Assembly (NCBI GenBank): GCA_003554945.1
Contig: PWHN01000072.1
Span: 1 to 15,272, forward strand
Reading direction: 5' to 3'
From: a bacterium
Lineage (GTDB): Bacteria; T1Sed10-126
Length of the DNA stretch: 15,272 nt
The notes under the pieces: generated by a model
Databases searched by the model: none
What the model saw: only the letters and a program-made list of their open reading frames with translations
Told to the model about the DNA's origin: nothing
Position numbers and translations under genes: made by a program
Part shown: positions 3,476 to 15,083 of the stretch, in pieces
Layout: each line of letters begins with the position of its first letter
How positions within the stretch are numbered: the first letter of the stretch is position 1

Positions 3476-4879
3476 CTAACTCACAATTCTAACAGTGACA
3501 TCCGAATAAAGGGGGCGCTCAAGCTCCTCCTGAATCATTTTTTCCCAATCGCCGGCATCCAAAAAATCGGTGTCAACATATTCCTCATCAAGAGTAATCT
3601 CAGCCGCGTCCGAGTTGGAGGGCAAATTAAAGTCACCACCGGCCACCAGGAGCCCCCGCAGAATGGGACCGGTGCCTCCGCCCATACTCCCAAAATTGAA
3701 ATCACCACTGGAACCGGCAAGCCCTTTTATTTCAATATTATTTCGTTCAAAATCTACGTCGGCTTCCGCTTCAACATCTCCCTCCCCCCAGAGGGCCAGT
3801 CCGCCAAACTTGTCGGGGTCTCCCTCGAACTCATAGTTATTCCCTTCCACTCTAATCCCCCCCTCAGCATAGAGCCCACCGAGCAGCCCGTTACCATTGC
3901 CTTCAAAGACGAAATCAGCGTCGGAATAGATAGTGACTGAACTACCGTCGGCTCGCTGGATCTGGCCGCCATCGTTATCAGTAATTGAATAACCGTGCTG
4001 ATCCTTCTGCACGCAGACCGGTGATCCATCCTCCCAGGTAACGTCGGTATCTGAACCGTCAGTAGGACGAAGCGCTTTTCCCTGCGGACAGTCTGGGGTC
4101 TCCGCCCAGTCGTCGAAGTTGTTTAAATCTACCGTATAATCGGTTGGATCGCCGGCAGGAAACTGCGGTGCCGATCTTTCCAGGTCATCGCTGGTCACAG
4201 TTCCCGCACCACCGCCTGGCGGCGAGAAATTAGCTCCCGAGGGCAGATGCACGTTGCCCATAACTCCAGACTGTGAGCGACTGCCGTCAATATCTCCGGC
4301 GCCACAAAAATTCGCCCCGGAAGCGTCAAAATTATTACCGGATAAATCCATCGCCCCCCCTGCAAAAACACCACAGTCGGCAATCGTGTGCAATGTTCGA
4401 TATATCTTTTGCGGATGAATTTCTGCCACTGCAGCATGAGTAAATACAACTACATCAGAACCACCAAACAATGCTGAGGGCCAGAAATGGGGGTTAAAAA
4501 CACCGTAGGTAACCACACCAACGCGGTAATACTCTTCAACCACACCATTTGTTTCACTGGTAAAATATTCAAGAAAAATTCCATCAACATCATCCGGGGC
4601 GTGACGTTCGTAAAAGCCTAAACGTCCTTCCCCCTGGCTGGAAGCTATATAGTCGAGGACCGCATCATAGACAAGAGCTTCGTCGGGCTCGTCCCGATAT
4701 TGATTCAGGGCCTGCCCGCCCGCACGGGCTGCATTGTCGGCCACTGACTGCACTTCCTGGCGCAACATGTAATAACGGGATAAATCAACCCCCAGAGTGG
4801 CAGCAAAAATAAAGAAAAATAGAAAAAAAGCACCGGCTACAATGAAGGAACCACGTTCCGTAACCAAAAAATTATTCAT
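3476..4879 (-). CDS. TadG-like pilus protein with long glycine/asparagine-rich C-terminal region
   Basis: The protein is 467 residues from the preferred start. The N-terminus (LVTERGSFIVAGAFFLFFF) is a TadE/TadG-type membrane helix after a glycine that could be a prepilin-peptidase site, although the usual Glu at +5 is Ala. It is followed by the TadG-like segment RQEVQSVADNAARAGGQAL. Residues of about 165-440 are rich in Gly, Asn and Asp, with beta-type repeats (DLSGNNFDASGANF, GNGLLGGLYAEGGIRVEGNN, VDFERNNIEIKGLAG) resembling the repetitive beta tails of some pilus-associated proteins. I see no von Willebrand A domain, which TadG often has. There are cysteines in the middle region. The ATG at 4879 is chosen over the GTG at 4888 because GGAG lies eight bases before it. 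The gene probably makes a surface-exposed or periplasmic minor component. Confidence 0.72.
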   Translation of the reverse strand: MNNFLVTERGSFIVAGAFFLFFFIFAATLGVDLSRYYMLRQEVQSVADNAARAGGQALNQYRDEPDEALVYDAVLDYIASSQGEGRLGFYERHAPDDVDGIFLEYFTSETNGVVEEYYRVGVVTYGVFNPHFWPSALFGGSDVVVFTHAAVAEIHPQKIYRTLHTIADCGVFAGGAMDLSGNNFDASGANFCGAGDIDGSRSQSGVMGNVHLPSGANFSPPGGGAGTVTSDDLERSAPQFPAGDPTDYTVDLNNFDDWAETPDCPQGKALRPTDGSDTDVTWEDGSPVCVQKDQHGYSITDNDGGQIQRADGSSVTIYSDADFVFEGNGNGLLGGLYAEGGIRVEGNNYEFEGDPDKFGGLALWGEGDVEAEADVDFERNNIEIKGLAGSSGDFNFGSMGGGTGPILRGLLVAGGDFNLPSNSDAAEITLDEEYVDTDFLDAGDWEKMIQEELERPLYSDVTVRIVS

Positions 4880-4887
4880 TTTGTCCA

Positions 4888-4891
4888 CTCC
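4888..4891 (-). promoter_or_regulatory. Ribosome binding site deciding the ATG start of the tadG-like gene
   Basis: GGAG on the minus strand sits eight bases before the ATG at 4879. It overlaps the alternative GTG (4886-4888), which has no site of its own. Confidence 0.6.
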
Positions 4892-4957: not shown

Positions 4958-5917
4958 TTAAAGGGCGGGACCTTCGGCCATCTGTGTAATAACTTCCAGT
5001 ATTACGGGGCCAAGGACAACAATGAAAATGGTTGGAAAAATAAACAGGACCATGGGAATTAACATTTTTACGGGCGCCTCCTGGGCTTTTTTCTCAATCC
5101 TCTGGCGACGGTCGGTCCGCATTTGCTCGGCCTGGATACGCAGAACCTCGCCGATGCTGGCACCGAGTTCTTCCGCCTGAATAATAGCCGAGACAAAACT
5201 GTCGAGAACATCAACGTCAACTCGCTCAAGCATATTTCGCAGGGCTCGCTTGCGGGGCGTGCCCAGTTTTATCTCTTCGAGCACCCGGCGAAATTCCAGA
5301 GCCAGGGCTCCCTCCATCTTCTGAACAACCCGGTTTAAAGCCATGTCAAAGCCCAGCCCGGCCTCGGCGGAGACAACCAGTAAATCAATTGCGAAGGGGA
5401 GAGTTTTCCGGACCTCGTTTTCACGCTGGGTAATCATTTTTTTGAGATAGAACCGGGGAATTATGTAGCTGGCCATACCGGCAACGGCGGCGAAAATTAT
5501 TGCCAGGGCCAGGCCACGCGGTGTAGTCGGGCCTATCAAAAGAGCAACTATTGCCACAATGGAGACGCTCAGCAGACCAAGGACAAGCTGAAGAGCAATA
5601 AATTCATTGGGGCCCAGGTTTCCCGGACGGCCGGCGGATATCAAATGACGCTCAAGTTTTTCCCGTTTTGACTCCCCCTCCCCGGCAATTAAAGAGGCTA
5701 TCTTCTCCAGCATAGGATAAATATTACGTTCGTAAAAAGTTCCCTTAAGCAGCTCCTCGTCAAGGTCCATCTCTTCTTCCTGCTGACGGTAACCGGTTAC
5801 CTCACAAAAACGCTGGAATACCCGCGACCCCTGCTCGCTCCGGGAGCCAAAGAGAAAAATAGTTACTGAAGCCAGAAATAATAAAACAGCCACAAAAACT
5901 GCAAAGTATACTAACAC
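4958..5917 (-). CDS. tadC: Tad platform protein TadC (type II secretion F domain)
   Basis: This 319-residue inner-membrane protein forms the pilus assembly platform with TadB, passing motion from TadA to the pilin subunits. It has an N-terminal membrane segment (2-25), a cytoplasmic stretch, two hydrophobic segments (about 105-152), a T2SSF domain (about 168-295; LPFAIDLLVVSAEAGLGFD, LGTPRKRALRNMLERVD, SAIIQAEELGASIGEVL) and a C-terminal membrane helix (about 288-312). The FVSAIIQAEELG type segment and its position after tadB identify it as TadC. The GTG start is supported by GGTGA six bases upstream. It is separated from tadB by about 390 bp of non-coding sequence holding a MITE-like element, unusual because tadB and tadC normally abut. 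Confidence 0.9.
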   Translation of the reverse strand: MLVYFAVFVAVLLFLASVTIFLFGSRSEQGSRVFQRFCEVTGYRQQEEEMDLDEELLKGTFYERNIYPMLEKIASLIAGEGESKREKLERHLISAGRPGNLGPNEFIALQLVLGLLSVSIVAIVALLIGPTTPRGLALAIIFAAVAGMASYIIPRFYLKKMITQRENEVRKTLPFAIDLLVVSAEAGLGFDMALNRVVQKMEGALALEFRRVLEEIKLGTPRKRALRNMLERVDVDVLDSFVSAIIQAEELGASIGEVLRIQAEQMRTDRRQRIEKKAQEAPVKMLIPMVLFIFPTIFIVVLGPVILEVITQMAEGPAL

Positions 5918-6075
5918 TTAGATCACCGTTATTATGATAATTAACTACCACTTAAAATCCACAGCAGATCTTTTATCCACTTCCCCTTCCTCCAGGTGAG
6001 GAGAAATGCTGTAGTAACCCTAGTGCTTAGTCACAATTGAATTTTCGGGTTGTCTCTTGCCGTCATTGGCCACAG

Positions 6076-6110
6076 GTCATCATGACCGGACTTGATCCGG
6101 GTATCAACCA
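6076..6110 (+). repeat. Palindromic repeat, copy a, inside the MITE-like element
   Basis: CCGGA (6086-6090), loop CTTGA, TCCGG (6096-6100), preceded by a second short palindrome GGTCATCATGACC. It has the GTCAT...CCAGG frame of copies b-d but is less regular, as if something had been inserted or duplicated in it. Confidence 0.55.
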
Positions 6111-6130
6111 GGCAATCAGCATTACGAACG

Positions 6131-6160
6131 TCATTGCCCAACTTGATTGGGCAATCCAGT
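6131..6160 (+). repeat. Palindromic repeat, copy b, inside the MITE-like element
   Basis: Perfect 9-bp stem ATTGCCCAA (6133-6141) with TTGGGCAAT (6147-6155) around the loop CTTGA, followed by CCAGTG. The loop is the same as in copy a, while the stem bases differ. Confidence 0.7.
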
Positions 6161-6190
6161 GACTTTGACCTTCGACCGTTAGAAATTCAA

Positions 6191-6222
6191 CGGCACTGGA
6201 TTCCCGCTTCCGCGGGAATGAC
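6191..6222 (-). repeat. Palindromic repeat, copy c, inside the MITE-like element
   Basis: Perfect 8-bp stem ATTCCCGC (6200-6207) with GCGGGAAT (6212-6219) around TTCC. On the minus strand it reads GTCATT-stem-AATCCAGTG, so it faces copy b. The two share CCAGTG/CACTGG flanks and form a larger inverted pair. Confidence 0.7.
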
Positions 6223-6307
6223 AACCGAAAAACGGATAAAAGTGCGGCCACATTTTCAACTGTGACTGAGCACTAGCTACTGGTTAATCAAATTTAAAGT
6301 ATCATGA

Positions 6308-7321
6308 TCAAATATCTATATTCACTATCTGCCAGATAAAGAAGAAACCTATTCCCTGCCAGAAAAGAGCGAAGATAATAGCCGCGATACCAACCGGATG
6401 AGTTAAAAACTGGACCATCATCTCCGTCTGCAAAAAGTAAAAAACAACCCCAAGGAGGAAGGGCAGTAACGAAATAATCGCTCCACCCATTTTACCCTGC
6501 GCAGTCAGGGCTCTAATCTGACCCTGAATCTTAACCCGTTCACGGATAGTTGAGCTTATCTGGTCCAGAATTTCGCTGAGCCGACCTCCAACCTGGCGCT
6601 GAATAAGCACGGCTGTCACCACCAGGTCCAGGTCATCACTTTCCATTCGATCAACCAGGCGCTCCAGAGCATCCTCGACGGGAATACCAAAACGGTTCTC
6701 GCGCACGACACGTTCAAATTCTTCTGATGCCGGTGGTCGGGCTTCACTGGCGACAAGCTGCAGCGCCTGAATAAAGCCATAGCCCGACTTAAGACCATTG
6801 GACATCAAATTTATTAAATCTAAAAGCTGACTGTTGAAAGCTTTCATTCGCTGGTGACGGCGGTAAAAGACGTAAATAACCGGAAAAATCCAGCCAAGAG
6901 CAAATCCTACCAGGCCCAGCACGGCTACCCGGGCACCAAATAAAAAATAACCTAGCAGAGCGCTTAAAAACCCTATAACAACCATAACAAAAAAACAGAT
7001 TATCACGTATTCAGCCGGCCGGACCCGCAGGCCACTGCGCAAAAGCCAGTTCCTCATTTTTTCCTCAATTTCTTCGCTAATCGCAGTTTCTGACAGATAC
7101 TCGGCTATCCCGCGAATAAAAGAAAAGCTTTCCTCTTCCGATTCGGCAGATTTCTGCCGTGCAAGCTCTTCCCTGTAGGCCTGGTCAACGTAAGGGCGGA
7201 TGCGCTCTTTTATTGTAGCGTGACGGCGTTTCTCACGTTTTTTCAGGGTATAAAGGACAATCACTATGCCAAGGCTGGAAAACAGTAAAAGAAGCTGGAG
7301 AATACGGGCGGGCGTTAACAT
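6308..7321 (-). CDS. tadB: Tad platform protein TadB (type II secretion F domain)
   Basis: This 337-residue inner-membrane partner of TadC forms the pilus assembly platform above the TadA ATPase. It has an N-terminal membrane helix (about 7-25), a basic and acidic cytoplasmic stretch, two helices (about 104-152), a T2SSF domain (about 163-295; QLLDLINLMSNGLKSGYGF, FGIPVEDALERLVDRME, IQRQVGGRLSEILDQI) and two C-terminal helices. Its ATG overlaps the TAA of tadA by one base (TAATG), so the two are translationally coupled. Length and order (tadA-tadB-tadC) are typical of the family. Confidence 0.92.
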   Translation of the reverse strand: MLTPARILQLLLLFSSLGIVIVLYTLKKREKRRHATIKERIRPYVDQAYREELARQKSAESEEESFSFIRGIAEYLSETAISEEIEEKMRNWLLRSGLRVRPAEYVIICFFVMVVIGFLSALLGYFLFGARVAVLGLVGFALGWIFPVIYVFYRRHQRMKAFNSQLLDLINLMSNGLKSGYGFIQALQLVASEARPPASEEFERVVRENRFGIPVEDALERLVDRMESDDLDLVVTAVLIQRQVGGRLSEILDQISSTIRERVKIQGQIRALTAQGKMGGAIISLLPFLLGVVFYFLQTEMMVQFLTHPVGIAAIIFALFWQGIGFFFIWQIVNIDI

Positions 7322-8670
7322 TACTTTTCCACAAACATGTCGGAAGGTACTTCTATGCCTTCCTGCTTAAAGCGTGAAAAGAAAGAAGGGCGAACCCCGG
7401 TAGGTTTAAGTTCACCGACCACTTTTCCATCAACCATTCCCTCCTGCTGGAAGGTAAATATTTCCTGAAGTTGAACTGTGTCACCCTCGAGCCCCTGGAC
7501 TTCGGTAACACTGACAATCTTACGACTGCCGTCGCGAAGACGCGACTGCTGAACAATAAGATCAACGGCCGAGGTTATCTGTTCACGTATTGCTTTTTGC
7601 GGCAGCTCCATGCCGGCCATTAAGACCAACGTTTCAAGCCGCGAAACACACTCGCGGGGATTATTGGAGTGAATTGTGGTAAGCGAGCCATCGTGGCCGG
7701 TATTCATGGCCTGAAGCATATCAAGTGCCTCGGCGCCACGACATTCACCAACGATAATGCGGTCCGGTCGCATCCGCAGTGAGTTTTTAACTAACTCCCG
7801 CATCGTTACCTCTCCCTCCCCTTCAATATTGGGTGGGCGAGTTTCAAGCGAAACAACATGCTCCTGCTGAAGTTGCAACTCCGCCGAATCCTCAATCGTA
7901 ACAATTCGGTCACCATCGGGAATAAAACTGGAAAGAACATTAAGCGTCGTCGTCTTACCGGACCCAGTTCCTCCCGAAACGATAACATTTAATTTACACT
8001 CTACACAACCACGCAAAAATTCAGCCATTTCTTTGGTCATTGTGCCAAAATTTATCAAATCATTTACATCAAAGGGATCCTCGGAAAATTTTCTTATCGT
8101 AAGCGTGGGACCGTTAAGAGCCAGCGGCGGTATAATAACATTTACACGGGAACCATCAGCAAGACGGGCGTCACAGTAAGGTTGGCTCTCATCAACCCGA
8201 CGTCCCAGGGGCGCAACTATTTTTTGGATAATATTCATCATGTGGTCGGTATCGTTAAAACTAACCTCGGTCTCCTGCAGTTTACCGTCCCGCTCAATAT
8301 AAATTTGATCGGGGCCATTAGCCATTATCTCGGTTACTTCAGGTTGAGCAAGTAGAGGTTCCAGCGGGCCTAACCCCAGTATTTCGTTCAAAAGCTCTTG
8401 AATTAGTTGCTCGTGTTCGTTTCGAGAGAGATGAATATCTTCTTCTGATCCTACCGTAATCACGTGTTCCTCAACACTGCCGCGGATACGCTGGCGCTGC
8501 TGCTCGTCGTCTTCAGCAGCAGGTAGCGATTCCGACCCCAACTGCTCCACAACACGCTCATGAACTTTTTCTTTTAACCGCTCCTTGGGCGATTTTACAT
8601 CGGATACCCCCTCGGATTTTTTGGCGGGAGCTTTATCCTGTGCGTCTTTTAGACGATCTAATAATGACAT
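7321..8670 (-). CDS. tadA: Tad pilus assembly/retraction ATPase TadA (CpaF)
   Basis: This 449-residue cytoplasmic hexameric ATPase of the type II/IV secretion family powers Flp pilus extension and retraction. After a charged N-terminal region (1-75) come the N-terminal domain (about 80-210) and the ATPase core. Motifs seen are Walker A GGTGSGKT (233-240), the Asp box TIEDSAEL (258-265), Walker B RIIVGE (304-309) and the His box [13 protein letters not shown] (324-336). All key residues look intact and the length is usual. The ATG start has GGTGA nine bases upstream. It sits 41 bases after tadZ and overlaps tadB by one base, placing it in the main tad transcription unit. Confidence 0.95.
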
Positions 8671-8711: not shown

Positions 8712-10361
8712 CTACTCATCAATTACTACCGTGGTCCCGGCGATTAGATCGTGCCAGGCCCGCTGTTTTTCATCAATCAGTATCCAGAGATAACCAAGTC
8801 CCAGGGGCAACAGAGAAACCAGAAGTGCCAGGGCTCGTAAAAACGAAACACCCAGCAAGACCGGAGTATCCTCCGGCCCCGACAGCCGCAGACCCATGAG
8901 CCGTTTGCCAAGTGGCTGACCACCCACGTGAAGCAGCGAAAAATAGAGCAGCGGTGGAAGAAACGAGAACAACAGACCGCCAAAACCAATCAAAAGACCA
9001 AGCGGCTGGTCAAGGAGCATGAAACTTAACAGCGCCGGCAGACCCAAAAGTAGCCATAAAATACCGGCCACAGCGTGATCCACAACTCCGGCGGCAATTC
9101 TCTGGCCCAAAGGCGGAGACTCGCCCCCATCTAACAGAGGGTCCTCTTCTTCTACAACAAGATCTTCTTCGCGATCAAAATAATCCTCCACCAGAAATTC
9201 TGTCAGTTCAAAAAGATGTCTGGCAAAATCTGATTCGGGATGTGATAAAACCAGTGGAGTGCCTTCGTCAATCGAAGGCATTACCAGGTTACCCTGGCTG
9301 GGAACTCGCCCGATAATTTTACGACCCAGCGCTTCCTCAACTTCTTCTACCTGTAGCTCTGAGTCGGGAACGTCACGGTTCATAACTATGCGTATATGAT
9401 CCTCGGAGAGGCCGATATTTTCCATCAACTCAAGCATTAATTTGCCATTTTTTATAGTTGGTAACTCAAGCGTCAGCAAGAGCAGGATCAAATCCGACTC
9501 TTCCACGGCGACCATCATCGGCTCGGAAATATGCGATGAAGTGTCGACAATCACATAGTCGTAATGACGACGCAAAGCGGCAACAATTTTATGAACGTCC
9601 TCCGCTTCAACGTATTCCGCTTCCTCGGGCCGTGGTGGCGAGGGTAACAGATCAACGCCAGATGGTTCGTGGGTGTGCATATAATTTTCCAGCAAGTCGT
9701 AACCCACCCGTTCTTCGTGCTTGCAATCGCGGGCAAGGGTGGCGATCATAGTGGTCGGTTTCATGTCCATCAGAATGGCGTCGTCACCAAACTGCAGGTC
9801 AAGATCGACCAGGGCGACCCGTTTTTTCGTTAACTTGCGAAAAGAGCAGGCCAGATTGACGGCAAATAGTGAACGGCCAACACCCCCTTTTGTGCTAAAG
9901 ACAGAAATCACCTTGCCCGGACGAGTTTTTTTGCCAGGAGAGCGCCCGGAGACAACTTCGGACAGCTTTTCCTGGCGCCGGCGGGAGGTCTCAACTATCT
10001 CCACCACCGCTTCCACCAGTTCTTCGGCATCACAGGGCTTATTCAAATAATCAAACGCTCCAGCCCGGACCAGTTTACGGGCCAGTTCATCTGTCTCCCC
10101 GCCGGGGCTTAAAAGAAGAATTTCCAACTGAGGGAACTCAACCACCACCTCCCGGACCAGCTCCTCTAAATCCGCTGCACTGGCCAGCTCAAGTGAGAGC
10201 AATAGCAGGTCGGGCTGATGATCTTTCAATTCGGATACACATTCGGTGAAGTCTTCTATTTCGGTAAGAATTTCGAGGTCGGGATCCTCGAATAACATCT
10301 TTTTAAGGTCTATGCGCTGTTGAAGGTCAGGATGAGCGAGAGCAACACTTACGGTATCCAA
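8712..10361 (-). CDS. tadZ: TadZ/CpaE-like localisation ATPase fused to a C-terminal RDD membrane domain
   Basis: In Tad systems TadZ, a ParA/MinD-type ATPase, marks the site of pilus assembly. This 549-residue protein has three parts. Residues 1-125 are a receiver-like domain without the phospho-acceptor Asp (PDLLLLS where REC domains have D) but with K108 in LNKP. Residues 149-395 are a MinD-like ATPase with deviant Walker A STKGGVGRS (K158; the second, usual Lys is R163), VDLDLQFGD and IVDTS. Residues of about 413-549 are an RDD domain with three membrane helices (about 427-450, 453-478, 506-529) and family motifs GQRIAAGVVDH, GKRLMGLRL and AWHDLIAGT. The frame is continuous with no sign of a frameshift. 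The TTG start has GGAG ten bases upstream and lies one codon after the secretin TAG. The RDD tail would fix the ATPase to the inner membrane. Confidence 0.88.
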   Translation of the reverse strand: MDTVSVALAHPDLQQRIDLKKMLFEDPDLEILTEIEDFTECVSELKDHQPDLLLLSLELASAADLEELVREVVVEFPQLEILLLSPGGETDELARKLVRAGAFDYLNKPCDAEELVEAVVEIVETSRRRQEKLSEVVSGRSPGKKTRPGKVISVFSTKGGVGRSLFAVNLACSFRKLTKKRVALVDLDLQFGDDAILMDMKPTTMIATLARDCKHEERVGYDLLENYMHTHEPSGVDLLPSPPRPEEAEYVEAEDVHKIVAALRRHYDYVIVDTSSHISEPMMVAVEESDLILLLLTLELPTIKNGKLMLELMENIGLSEDHIRIVMNRDVPDSELQVEEVEEALGRKIIGRVPSQGNLVMPSIDEGTPLVLSHPESDFARHLFELTEFLVEDYFDREEDLVVEEEDPLLDGGESPPLGQRIAAGVVDHAVAGILWLLLGLPALLSFMLLDQPLGLLIGFGGLLFSFLPPLLYFSLLHVGGQPLGKRLMGLRLSGPEDTPVLLGVSFLRALALLVSLLPLGLGYLWILIDEKQRAWHDLIAGTTVVIDE

Positions 10362-10364
10362 AAG

Positions 10365-11927
10365 CTACAGCTCCGCTTCTTCCGGCAAATCTCCTGCATC
10401 TATTACCGGAGTGTCTTCTAATGGTTCATAGTCGTCGGGCAATTCTTCCTCCTCAAGTTCTTCCGGGTCCAGATCAACTATTTCAGCAGTTAAGAAGATT
10501 GTTAACCTTTCTACTTGCTGACTGTCTTCTTCATAACGGAAGAGAGCAGGACCTAAGAAAGGTATGCTACCCAGAATGGGTACTCTATGCTCCGCAGCGC
10601 TTTCCAGTTCTCGATCCAGGCCGCCAATTACCAGTGTTTGACCATCACGAAGTGCTACATCCAGATCAACCCTGCGTCTATCCACTTCAGAAGTGTAAAC
10701 AGGATATTCTTCAATATCCGCCACTCTGTTTAATGTCGCTATTTTCATTTCCGGTTTAACATTCAAATAAATTAAACCGTCACCGCCAATTAAAGGAGTA
10801 GCTTCAAGCGTAATACCATCCTGAACACTTTCCATAATTGGCGTCGTTCGAGTGGTTTGATCAGTCTCTACAACTTCCACGTCAGCCGTATAGGATTGTT
10901 CACTTATAACCTCCAGTTCCGCTTTCCGTTGATTTCGGGTCATAACCGTGGGGGAAGATATAAGGTTTATAAGATCTTCTGTCTCTAGAAACTGCATAGC
11001 CAACCGGAGCTCATCAGGTTCTACGTCACCAATACCAAGTCGTAATCCCCCGTCTCCAAACCCTATACCGGCATCCTCTCCTGAGACAACTCCATTGTAA
11101 TCCCAGTCCACCCCTATTCGTCGTTCTGCCTCATCAGTCATTTCAACAAAACGTGCCTCAATACGGACTTGCGCTACTGTTTCGACATCAATAGAAGTTA
11201 CGTAATCCTCCAGCCTTTCTACCCGATCCATCTTATCAGCAATCAAAAGAGTATTCGTCTCTTCGTCCATAATGACTTCCCCGTCGCCAGAGAGCATTTC
11301 TTTTACTTTATCAATAATTTCGGTGGCAGGCCGATGCTCCAACTCCAACCGGCGAGAAAAAAGTTCGTCACGATCAGGTACATCAAGCTCATCAGTAATT
11401 TTTTCAATTTTATCCAGTAATTCTGTCGGTCCATAGACGAATATCTTTCGTGCTTCAGCGTCTGCAAGCAAAATTTCACCGTCATCTTGAAGTAACTCGT
11501 CTACGTAGTCTTCAAATTCACTTATACCCCGGTGTCGCGGAGAAATTTCACGTAATTCCATACCTTCCTCTACTTCTTCAATCATACGTAAAAAATCCCG
11601 TTCACGCCTTTCTAAATCACGCCGGACTCGCAAATTATACTGGTGCCTACCTTCTTCAGACCAAACATGCAGTGTAGTTTGCCCTGCTTCTTTGCCAAAT
11701 ATTAAAATTTCTGTTGAACTTATTACTTTCAGCCGGGCCATTTCGTCGGCGGCCAAAACCACACGTTCCACAGGCGCAACTGTTTCTAAGACAACACTGC
11801 CCCGAACTTCTACCTCGATCTCACTATAGCTCCAGGCAGAATTGATCGTAATGAAGCTCGTAATAAGTAGCCATAAAACAACTAATAATTTGAATCGGGA
11901 CAAAATTACTTTTTTGTTAATTTCCAT
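10365..11927 (-). CDS. cpaC: Tad outer-membrane secretin CpaC/RcpA
   Basis: The protein is 520 residues from the preferred ATG and forms the outer-membrane channel through which the pilus passes. It has a signal peptide (about 1-34, ending near NSAWS), a T2SS/T3SS pilus N-terminal domain (about 35-105; VEVRGSVVLETVAPVERVVL), secretin N domains (about 145-250; NTLLIADKMDRVERLEDYV) and a secretin domain (about 255-485; ISSPTVMTRNQRKAEL, GQTLVIGGL, VPILGSIPFLG, IFLTAEIVD). A very acidic tail of about 35 residues follows. The ATG at 11927 overlaps the cpaB TGA by one base (TGATG), so it is preferred over the TTG one codon upstream. Hand-counted lines here are often 40-48% G+C, against 50-63% in many lines of the neighbouring genes. 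Confidence 0.93.
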   Translation of the reverse strand: MEINKKVILSRFKLLVVLWLLITSFITINSAWSYSEIEVEVRGSVVLETVAPVERVVLAADEMARLKVISSTEILIFGKEAGQTTLHVWSEEGRHQYNLRVRRDLERRERDFLRMIEEVEEGMELREISPRHRGISEFEDYVDELLQDDGEILLADAEARKIFVYGPTELLDKIEKITDELDVPDRDELFSRRLELEHRPATEIIDKVKEMLSGDGEVIMDEETNTLLIADKMDRVERLEDYVTSIDVETVAQVRIEARFVEMTDEAERRIGVDWDYNGVVSGEDAGIGFGDGGLRLGIGDVEPDELRLAMQFLETEDLINLISSPTVMTRNQRKAELEVISEQSYTADVEVVETDQTTRTTPIMESVQDGITLEATPLIGGDGLIYLNVKPEMKIATLNRVADIEEYPVYTSEVDRRRVDLDVALRDGQTLVIGGLDRELESAAEHRVPILGSIPFLGPALFRYEEDSQQVERLTIFLTAEIVDLDPEELEEEELPDDYEPLEDTPVIDAGDLPEEAEL

Positions 11928-13168
11928 CAACGTTTGGGAACCCGGTGGGTCTCTTCCCGGTCTCCCTGGATCACCTCCACCGGTCTGGATTCCATTAACC
12001 CTTCAACCTCGCGACGCATTCCCGGATCAAAAAGCTCGGGATCTGTTATTTTTCTTAACCCGTATTTGGTCTCCAGTGAGCTGGGACGTAAAATAGCATA
12101 AAAGTGAACGTCCATCCCCCGGTCCTTCATCCCCTCAACAAGCCGAACTTTTTCCGCTTCTTTCAGGGTCAGGGCGAGTGTCATACCGTCATAAGTCAGG
12201 GGTGAGTCGTCCTCCTCCAGGGCGGCCAGCTCTCCTCGCTCCCAGATGCTGCGATCGTCCCGGCTCAGGGCCAGAACTTCCGCTGCCTCGGCTACTTTTT
12301 GCAGAACGTGCAAGCGGTCACCCGCCCCCGGTAATTCCTCCAGTTGCTCGGCGCTATACTCACGCGGGTGATAGATGTATAAATCAATTAGATCACCGGG
12401 ACGAATCATGTAGTAGATGGAACGCGAACGGTCGACGTCAACGTTGACTGCCCGTAGATAGGAGGGAATAAAGAAAGAGAGCTGAAGATCATCTTCAAAT
12501 AAATCAGCGCCGTGAATAATCTCTCCGGCCTCCCGTGCTTGACGCAGAGCTCGCCCGGTCAAATCCTCGACATCATCAAAGGTGTCATCGGGAACATCCG
12601 GACGCGATTCAACCCGTAAATCTTCGGTCCGCAACAGTCTATTCGCACTGAGCGGGCGGGCAGCCACCACTACCTGTTCTTCCTCTTCATAAACCTGATC
12701 CCTGGTTACAACATTACCGGCAGGAATACTTTCCCTAACCATTTTGTCGATTAGCCAGTCGAGATCCGCTACAGCACGATCGGGTTTTTCTTCAACATAC
12801 TCCTCCTCTACCATTTCTCCACTTATACGATTGCCGGCAGGAATTGAGTCAATACTCTTAAACACGCGGTAGTCAGAACGCAAATCATCAGCGAAAAAAT
12901 GGTCTCCCCTCGAAACCTCACGAACTAAAACTTGACCAATTAACTCCCGGGAATCCGTAATGGCGTCCGCCGGTGGAGCTTCGTCAATCTCTTCTTCAGT
13001 CAGGTGGGTTTCGGAAAGGCGAGTGTTGGGAGAAATGTCTGTCGCCGCGACTATCACGGTGTGTGGTTCCTCCACGGTCAGATAGAGGACAGCAAATATA
13101 GCCGATCCCATCAGGACGGCAAGCAAAAAGAGAACAACGGCAACAACTATTAGTATTCGGTTCTGCAT
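11927..13168 (-). CDS. cpaB: Tad pilus assembly protein CpaB/RcpC with three SAF-like repeats
   Basis: This 413-residue periplasmic protein is anchored by an N-terminal helix (about 6-31) and works with the secretin, perhaps on its assembly or on peptidoglycan. Three tandem stretches of about 60 residues (about 37-96, 101-161 and 166-224) each show the SAF pattern: VIVAATDISPNTRLSETHL, FKSIDSIPAGNRISGEMV and VVVAARPLSANRLLRTEDL, each ending in a GxxxxxxDL-like segment. Most CpaB proteins show one. A RcpC/CpaB C-terminal domain follows (about 236-345; LRAVNVDVDR, RPGDLIDLYIY, LALTLKEAEKVRL). The ATG at 13168 is preferred over that at 13174, because GGGAG abuts the first ATG but is six bases from the second. 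A good promoter lies just upstream. Confidence 0.88.
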   Translation of the reverse strand: MQNRILIVVAVVLFLLAVLMGSAIFAVLYLTVEEPHTVIVAATDISPNTRLSETHLTEEEIDEAPPADAITDSRELIGQVLVREVSRGDHFFADDLRSDYRVFKSIDSIPAGNRISGEMVEEEYVEEKPDRAVADLDWLIDKMVRESIPAGNVVTRDQVYEEEEQVVVAARPLSANRLLRTEDLRVESRPDVPDDTFDDVEDLTGRALRQAREAGEIIHGADLFEDDLQLSFFIPSYLRAVNVDVDRSRSIYYMIRPGDLIDLYIYHPREYSAEQLEELPGAGDRLHVLQKVAEAAEVLALSRDDRSIWERGELAALEEDDSPLTYDGMTLALTLKEAEKVRLVEGMKDRGMDVHFYAILRPSSLETKYGLRKITDPELFDPGMRREVEGLMESRPVEVIQGDREETHRVPKR

Positions 13169-13174
13169 CTTCAT

Positions 13175-13287: not shown

Positions 13288-14082
13288 TCACGGGCCGACG
13301 GCCGGGTTTTGGTAGAGACGATTGTTCCCAACGTCAAATTTGTCTTCAATTCCGTCATTGGTATAATCATAGGGATATTCATCCTCCGATTTGGCAAGCC
13401 CGTCACCGTCAATGTCCGGATCCCCAACTGTATCAAGCTGCCCGGTATAGTCCCGGTGACTTGGATGGACCCACTCACGGTCAACCCCGCCGCCCTCGTA
13501 TATTTCGTTCAAATAATAGAGCACATACCCCGCCTCCCATGAGTCCACAAGGCCGTCACGGTCAATATCATTGGATACCTGAATAATCTGAGACCCCCGG
13601 ACCCGCTGGTTGAAAGTCAACGGGGGCAAAAAAGGAATTTTAATGCCAACTGCATAGTCCACACTAACAACAATCCGATAACCTTGCGTCCAGAAGAGAT
13701 ATGGCGCTACATTTTCTTTTCCTGGCGCCAGGCGCGGTTCATCAAACGGAAACTCATCTGTCTCCAGGGGGGCCAGACGCCGGTTGTCATGTGGATTATA
13801 AATTTCAACAGTTATCTCGTCGGGGTCGTAGTCCTGGTAACTGAAAGCGGTTGGTAAAAGGTTAGCCCGTTCACGCGAAAAAACTTCCTCCAGCCGGGGC
13901 AGCGGCGCCGCATAAGAAGCATAGTGAGCTGCATTGTCCGCAGTACGACTGAGAACTGCAAGATTATGAACATAAACGCCCAGCTCAAAAATCCCAAAGG
14001 CAAACATCAGGGCGACAACCACTACCAGCAGTAATTCAACCAACGCCTGCCCTGAACATTCACCGCGGCGTTTCAGACTCAT
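13288..14082 (-). CDS. TadE-like minor pilin with C-terminal EF-hand-like calcium loops (paralogue 2)
   Basis: The protein is 264 residues from the chosen start. It begins MSLKRRGECSGQALVELLL, with a TadE prepilin site G11/Q12 and Glu at +5, then a membrane helix (about 17-38). A periplasmic beta-rich region follows to about 170. The tail carries three EF-hand/thrombospondin-3-like loops: DIDRDGLVDSWE (172-183), DIDGDGLAKSED (223-234) and DYTNDGIEDKFD (239-250). The ATG at 14082 is chosen because it aligns residue for residue with the N-terminus of the neighbouring paralogue. A GTG at 14151 with a good Shine-Dalgarno would add 23 basic residues before the pilin site and overlap the upstream gene by 7 bases. 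Calcium-stabilised folding or binding is inferred. Confidence 0.78.
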   Translation of the reverse strand: MSLKRRGECSGQALVELLLVVVVALMFAFGIFELGVYVHNLAVLSRTADNAAHYASYAAPLPRLEEVFSRERANLLPTAFSYQDYDPDEITVEIYNPHDNRRLAPLETDEFPFDEPRLAPGKENVAPYLFWTQGYRIVVSVDYAVGIKIPFLPPLTFNQRVRGSQIIQVSNDIDRDGLVDSWEAGYVLYYLNEIYEGGGVDREWVHPSHRDYTGQLDTVGDPDIDGDGLAKSEDEYPYDYTNDGIEDKFDVGNNRLYQNPAVGP

Positions 14083-14144
14083 TGCCTTAATGGGATTTAT
14101 GCTTCGCCCTCTCGCCTGCTCGCTTCTTCGCCTCTTCGTGAACT

Positions 14145-15083
14145 TCACCACCTATCCACCTCATCCGGGTAACTATCGAACTTATTAACCCAGCCATTGT
14201 TGACTTTATCGTGGGCGGTGCGTAGTTCACGAATAATATAGGCGCGATCCGTATTTTCCACTCCCCAGCTTGGTAGGCGACGCTCAAACAGCTTTGGTGA
14301 CGCTTCGCTACCATCATCCCATATCTCCGGCGCATGATACCAGCCGTCTGTCTCCAATTCTTCGTCCCAGCCATCAATTCCGCCGAATTCACAGGTAGAA
14401 CCTAACGGGCTGTCATTAGGACGATAAAGATAGTAGCCGGACTCACAGGTCCCCTCGCTACCGTCTGTATAACCAATAGCAATAGTATCGGCATACCAGG
14501 GGTTACCGTCACCATCGGCGTCCTCCCCGGGACCGCCAAATAAATAAGCGTCTTGAACACCGTCGTTCGCATGATCTTCCCGGTAGGTATCCTCGAAAAA
14601 TTGATAACCCTCACAGTCAACCCCTTCTCCGGCCAGCTCATCCTTGCAACCGTCTCGGTCCTGGTCGTTGTGCTGAACAATAAGCGTATTGGTTTTTACC
14701 GGCAAGGAGATCGTAAGCTGACCCGGCCAGGTGGTAAATAAACCGTAGGAAATTTCTGTGGAAAGGGTTACTTCACGACCGTCTACACGCTCAATTTCAG
14801 CGGAAGGACTAATAGATATTTCCCCCGGCGCACTGGCAAAAAAGATGGTAGGAATTAAATGGTCGGATAACGTTTTCCCAACCGTCTCACGGATCTCTGA
14901 GTTGGAGCCACCCAGGGCACCGGCGCGGGCGCCGCGAACAAGTGCATCGTGATACAAATTCTGGTTATAGATAACCAGAGCAATGTCAAACACAAAGAGC
15001 ACAAAGAAAACAAAAACAACAAAAGCAAGGGCAAACTCAACCATGTATTGTCCGGAACAGTCTTTTAAACGCTTAATAATCAA
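14145..15083 (-). CDS. TadE-like minor pilin with C-terminal calcium-loop region (paralogue 1)
   Basis: This 312-residue protein starts TTG-ATT-ATT-AAG. The N-terminus MIIKRLKDCSGQYMVEFAL has the TadE processing site G11/Q12 with Glu at +5 and a membrane helix (about 17-38). Residues of about 85-135 are beta-rich. From 138 on come Asp-rich loops: DQDRDGCKDEL (140-150), DHANDGVQDAY (170-180) and DADGDG (188-193). Four cysteines (146, 157, 213, 231) in this exported part could form disulfides. It is the first tad gene in the window, and an 8-bp tandem repeat begins 70 bases upstream. The start is uncertain: the nearest purine-rich site, GGGA, is rather far from the TTG. I see no clear promoter in the 70 bases before it. 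Confidence 0.77.
   Translation of the reverse strand: MIIKRLKDCSGQYMVEFALAFVVFVFFVLFVFDIALVIYNQNLYHDALVRGARAGALGGSNSEIRETVGKTLSDHLIPTIFFASAPGEISISPSAEIERVDGREVTLSTEISYGLFTTWPGQLTISLPVKTNTLIVQHNDQDRDGCKDELAGEGVDCEGYQFFEDTYREDHANDGVQDAYLFGGPGEDADGDGNPWYADTIAIGYTDGSEGTCESGYYLYRPNDSPLGSTCEFGGIDGWDEELETDGWYHAPEIWDDGSEASPKLFERRLPSWGVENTDRAYIIRELRTAHDKVNNGWVNKFDSYPDEVDRW

Follow-up and report, generated by a model that had tools for sequence, protein, structure and literature searches.

MinD attaches to the membrane via its extreme C-terminus. For CpaE of Caulobacter a C-terminal amphipathic helix has been reported, and the protein was modelled in situ as six dimers ringing CpaF, so that it lies close to CpaF and, more tentatively, to CpaB (PMC13170226). 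The only characterized RDD protein that was found is reported to be a Na+(Li+,K+)/H+ antiporter of Halobacillus andaensis (PMC5996927). The gene described here brings the two families together: it lies in a tad operon and encodes an ATPase of the CpaE/TadZ type that is fused to an RDD membrane domain.

The window, i.e. the whole stretch of 15,272 nucleotides that was analyzed, contains the fusion gene as one frame of 549 codons without an internal stop (Table 1). The neighboring genes encode CpaB, CpaC, CpaF/TadA, two platform proteins, two TadE-like proteins and one TadG-like protein, and therefore the fusion gene stands at the place of cpaE/tadZ in a tad operon. With CpaF/TadA, the TadA-family model TIGR03819 reached 345.6 bits, just below its cut-off of 373. 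A Flp-type pilin (PF04964) had no match in the same genome with a search that is insensitive for such short proteins and reached the cut-off in only one of 14 control genomes. In both TadE-like proteins the C-terminal region is long and contains acidic motifs of the DxDxDG type (DRDGLVDSWEAG, DADGDGNPW); these motifs resemble the calcium sites of thrombospondin-3 and EF-hand proteins and are kept in the relative described below (L003 149-1937). A non-coding gap of about 390 bases separates tadB and tadC (5918-6307); it contains an inverted repeat (6150-6173 / 6182-6205) that looks like a dispersed REP/MITE-like element.

Table 1. Features of the fusion gene and of the surrounding tad operon. 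Residue numbers refer to the fusion protein.
Feature	Position	Strand	Basis or remark
cpaE/tadZ::RDD fusion gene	8712..10361	-	549 aa, TTG start
Atypical receiver (REC) domain, residues 1-125	9987..10361	-	Pfam Response_reg 2.4e-11
ParA/MinD-type ATPase domain, residues 150-393	9183..9914	-	AAA_31 4.4e-13, CbiA 5e-12
Acidic linker, poorly conserved, residues 394-415	9117..9182	-	23% identity between the two copies
RDD membrane domain (PF06271), residues 416-542	8736..9116	-	Pfam E 2.3e-17
Predicted TM1 region, residues 421-450	9012..9101	-	hydropathy; low-confidence AF2 helix 418-449
Predicted TM2, residues 455-477	8931..8999	-	hydropathy; low-confidence AF2 helix 454-477
Predicted TM3, residues 500-529	8775..8864	-	hydropathy; low-confidence AF2 helix 496-541
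cpaC/rcpA secretin, directly upstream of the fusion gene	10365..11930	-	Secretin, T2SS-T3SS_pil_N
cpaB/rcpC alignment protein	11927..13174	-	TIGR03177 114 bits, cut-off 71
cpaF/tadA pilus ATPase, next gene downstream of the fusion	7321..8670	-	T2SSE 9e-67
tadB platform protein	6308..7321	-	T2SSF
tadC platform protein	4958..5917	-	T2SSF
TadG-like protein	3476..4888	-	Pfam Tad PF13400
Two TadE-like minor pilin genes	13288-14151 and 14145-15083	-	Pfam TadE

The receiver domain was recognized at residues 20-119 by the Pfam model Response_reg (hmmscan, 44 bits versus a cut-off of 30.2). Its phospho-acceptor position is occupied by Ser56 (codon 10194-10196), whereas an Asp stands at this column in 35 of 62 homologues. 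Two ATPase models exceeded their curated cut-offs in the central part, AAA_31 at residues 150-313 and CbiA at residues 152-355, and this part also matches the solved structures 3ea0 and MinD. The deviant Walker A motif S-T-K-G-G-V-G-R-S comprises residues 156-164 (9870-9896). K158 of the P-loop KGGVGRS is found in 46 and R163 in 10 of the 62 homologues. Neither Ser56 nor this P-loop is peculiar to the RDD fusion; other CpaE homologues have them as well. The RDD domain was detected with 64 bits versus a cut-off of 24.1, covering positions 2-137 of the 137 profile positions, and a profile search of the whole genome found it at the same place with 68.6 bits. The uninterrupted transition from the ATPase to an RDD domain, which had been proposed in the preliminary description, is thus confirmed by the single open frame, by the significant RDD match and by the presence of the signature residues R421, D428 and D538.

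The same architecture is encoded in a second genome, a soda-lake sediment MAG (L003, PWOD01000227.1; reached independently as G001:C86), with 61% identity over residues 1-545. It is the single relative found in a pattern scan of GTDB genomes, which reaches close relatives. The two genomes belong to different genera of one family in a tiny, uncultured bacterial phylum, and both genomes of this phylum in the searched set carry the fusion. The gene of L003 also has a TTG start, the gene order is TadE-TadE-CpaB-CpaC-CpaE::RDD, cpaF starts 119 bases past the fusion stop, and the RDD domain was detected with 71.1 bits (E 1.5e-19). Identity between the two copies is 73% for the ATPase, 59% for the receiver, 45% for the RDD domain and 23% for the linker. 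For the RDD codons pN is 0.34 and pS is 0.73 (dN 0.46, dS 2.6); these values indicate purifying selection on this domain, although dS is almost saturated. Two separate genes in relatives would have spoken against the preliminary description; L003 has one fused frame. A separate RDD gene, or a stop lost at position 9125, was considered and rejected, because the frame of L003 is continuous.

Three membrane segments had been predicted at the outset, and hydropathy peaks were indeed found in both copies at about the positions listed in Table 1. The TM1 region contains R421 and D428, and the motif DEKQRAWHD with D538 comes after TM3, a segment that could possibly be kinked or a re-entrant pair. The three signature residues are kept in both copies and in aligned RDD proteins, and the motifs G-K/E-x-LMGL and LG-x-x-W are kept in the RDD domain of the fusion. 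An AF2 model built from a two-sequence alignment draws three helices as well, with a mean pLDDT of 47; due to this low confidence the topology is taken from hydropathy alone. Loop 1 has no basic residue; in loop 2 (478-499) the window copy has three K/R and the relative has one. With a cytoplasmic ATPase, loop 1 would be outside and loop 2 inside. This arrangement agrees with the positive-inside rule for the window copy, whereas the single K/R of the relative hardly supports it. The RDD tail had no match by sequence among solved structures, and a search of viral contigs, made to deepen the RDD alignment, revealed no relative. The single other RDD match in the same genome had 21.9 bits for its best stretch (24.8 with its neighbors; cut-off 24.1), and because this match is weak, a copy of a paralogue of the same genome was rejected as the source of the domain.

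The whole protein was searched against 386 genomes from across the bacteria, 81 of which gave matches, against 301 genomes of a phylum rich in CpaE (174 with matches), against 294 genomes (41 with matches) and 80 genomes (5 with matches) of two further phyla, and against a handful of very small phyla; scoring in the large searches was confined to the top few candidates of each genome. Outside the two genomes of the phylum, none of the matches listed has an RDD domain in frame with a CpaE-like ATPase. Among these matches, those to the ATPase extend to about residue 429 at most, apart from one degenerate, stop-containing frame that goes as far as residue 463. An RDD gene beside cpaE was also absent from the fetched stretches of other genomes, which were mostly 3-5 kb long, and no site in plasmids or phages reached 80% coverage of the fusion query. 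A full-text literature search for TadZ together with RDD yielded no relevant paper. Therefore, the fusion seems to be rare, and the literature that was searched does not describe it, in agreement with the earlier remark that this domain order is not known as a described one.

The preliminary description had also assumed that TadZ proteins are normally soluble and reach the membrane through partners. This view was not supported by the C-termini of the homologues. Their alignments to the window protein end at about residue 390 and are followed by a short tail, for example KSGLFSRLSTRR, KGGLMGLFGKKK, GLFSRLSTRR, GGFFGKKKK or KIKRALVRRR. The last 15 residues have a net charge of at least +2 in 49 of 57 distinct homologues (mean +3.4), versus 16% of control 15-mers (mean -0.3), and the tails are usually also hydrophobic. 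A basic tail is thus common, yet not universal, and is typical rather than defining for CpaE/TadZ. No stretch of 19 residues with a mean hydropathy above 1.6 follows the ATPase in any of the 65 homologue segments that were scored. Basic, usually hydrophobic tails are widespread over distant genomes (e.g., L034, L035, L039 and L064). This wide distribution supports a MinD-like membrane-targeting role of the tail in the CpaE family, and the reported helix of Caulobacter CpaE points in the same direction. Because the homologue tails are basic and usually hydrophobic, the RDD domain would change the kind of attachment, from peripheral to integral, and not create attachment from nothing.

It was directly observed that the fusion exists, that a second genus has kept it, that the RDD domain lies precisely at the place of the tails in other CpaE proteins, and that the gene belongs to a tad operon. 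The explanation that we regard as rather probable is that this is a CpaE/TadZ protein in which the basic amphipathic C-terminal tail was replaced by an integral RDD domain, so that a permanent anchor took the place of a reversible MinD-like tail. The RDD domain would sit within the inner membrane, leaving the receiver and ATPase domains in the cytoplasm, and it would hold the ATPase permanently beside CpaB, TadB/TadC and CpaF. Positioning would then occur by lateral movement or capture in the membrane together with ATP-dependent dimerization, and not by MinD-like on/off cycling. Several features of the sequence support such a replacement, namely the full-length match to the RDD profile, the segment of residues 395-420 with ten acidic and one basic residue, which leaves no basic amphipathic tail before TM1, the conserved R421, D428 and D538, and the signs of purifying selection. 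The conservation of the RDD domain, which is lower than that of the ATPase, counts against the anchor reading. A plain anchor has no obvious need for the RDD signature residues, and therefore the domain may do more than anchor. A change in membrane attachment is the likely consequence of the fusion.

One such additional role would be docking. The RDD domain might mainly be an intramembrane interaction module, e.g. for TadB/TadC, CpaB or a polar landmark, and anchoring might be a by-product. This is possible but rather unlikely. The retained signature residues and the two retained motifs speak for docking, as does the proximity of CpaE to CpaF, and more tentatively to CpaB, in the Caulobacter model. 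RDD domains are also fused to other modules, e.g. in L012, where RDD ends a long coiled-coil-like frame. However, an integral anchor accounts for the swap with fewer assumptions.

A second possibility, which appears improbable, is that the RDD domain acts as a Na+/H+ antiporter or as an ion or pH sensor that signals salt, pH or the energy state of the membrane to the pilus ATPase. The report of antiport by the H. andaensis protein (PMC5996927) and the origin of L003 from a soda-lake sediment (sampling: PMC6146748) are in agreement with this possibility. In the H. andaensis protein, R124, R129, D154 and D158 are reported to be essential and the family-wide R35 and D42 to be dispensable; R124, R129 and D158 are conserved solely among its close homologues (PMC5996927). 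Its essential D154, the family-wide Asp next to a His, corresponds to D538 of the fusion. However, the second essential Asp, D158, four residues further on, corresponds to Gly542 in the window copy and to a Lys in L003, and at most one Arg has a counterpart (R509), as judged from spacing and not from an alignment to the H. andaensis protein. The absence of a D158 counterpart argues against antiport, while sensing remains compatible with it; on the basis of these residues, a role in ion transport is less likely.

It is very improbable that an internal start yields a free RDD protein in addition to full-length CpaE: in the window copy Leu418 is encoded by TTG, preceded by a G-rich stretch, but the linker of L003 contains no in-frame ATG, GTG or TTG up to R421, and the frame is continuous in both copies. 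An internal start for a free RDD protein was therefore rejected as not conserved. That an assembly or sequencing error joined two genes is practically negligible: although the window is a whole MAG contig, the base composition runs smoothly over the ATPase-RDD junction, and the independent assembly of L003, at 61% identity, has the same junction in an open frame with cpaC upstream and cpaF downstream, which excludes an assembly join, a frameshift and a lost stop at about 9125.

The fusion is real, it is conserved in two genomes of the phylum, and it is a variant of CpaE/TadZ rather than a new kind of system. It is tempting, albeit tentative, to extend this to an obligate integral membrane Tad positioning ATPase in a phylum-level lineage, with spatial pilus control that does without the on/off cycling assumed for MinD-like ATPases, and with an RDD bundle that possibly senses ions or the membrane directly. 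The fusion is a natural test case for this question: should pili still be positioned by a CpaE with a permanent anchor, then membrane cycling is not required. Furthermore, the exchange of a putative membrane tail for an integral domain at the same position supports the view that the C-terminal end of CpaE is its membrane-targeting end.

Like CpaE of Caulobacter and TadZ of Aggregatibacter and Eubacterium rectale, the fusion protein consists of a REC-like domain and a deviant-Walker ParA/MinD ATPase, and its gene lies between those for the secretin and the CpaF/TadA motor. While the known proteins end soon after the ATPase, mostly with a basic and often amphipathic tail, the fusion ends in an RDD domain of 130 residues. 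Fusions of CpaE-type ATPases are not restricted to this case. Among the fetched long open frames, TPR follows the ATPase in L043, the ATPase is in frame with CpaF/TadA in L009 and L074, and the CpaE frames of L042 and L081 are N-terminally extended. These examples show that CpaE-type ATPases accept fusions, but none of them has a membrane domain after the ATPase. With the RDD family proteins (PF06271) the fusion shares the full-length profile match, the three hydrophobic segments and the conserved R, D and D; in contrast to the H. andaensis antiporter, its RDD domain is joined to a pilus ATPase and has no counterpart of the antiport-essential D158. With MinD it shares the ATPase superfamily. 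However, MinD and most CpaE proteins have short helices as tails, whereas the C-terminal attachment of the fusion would be integral.
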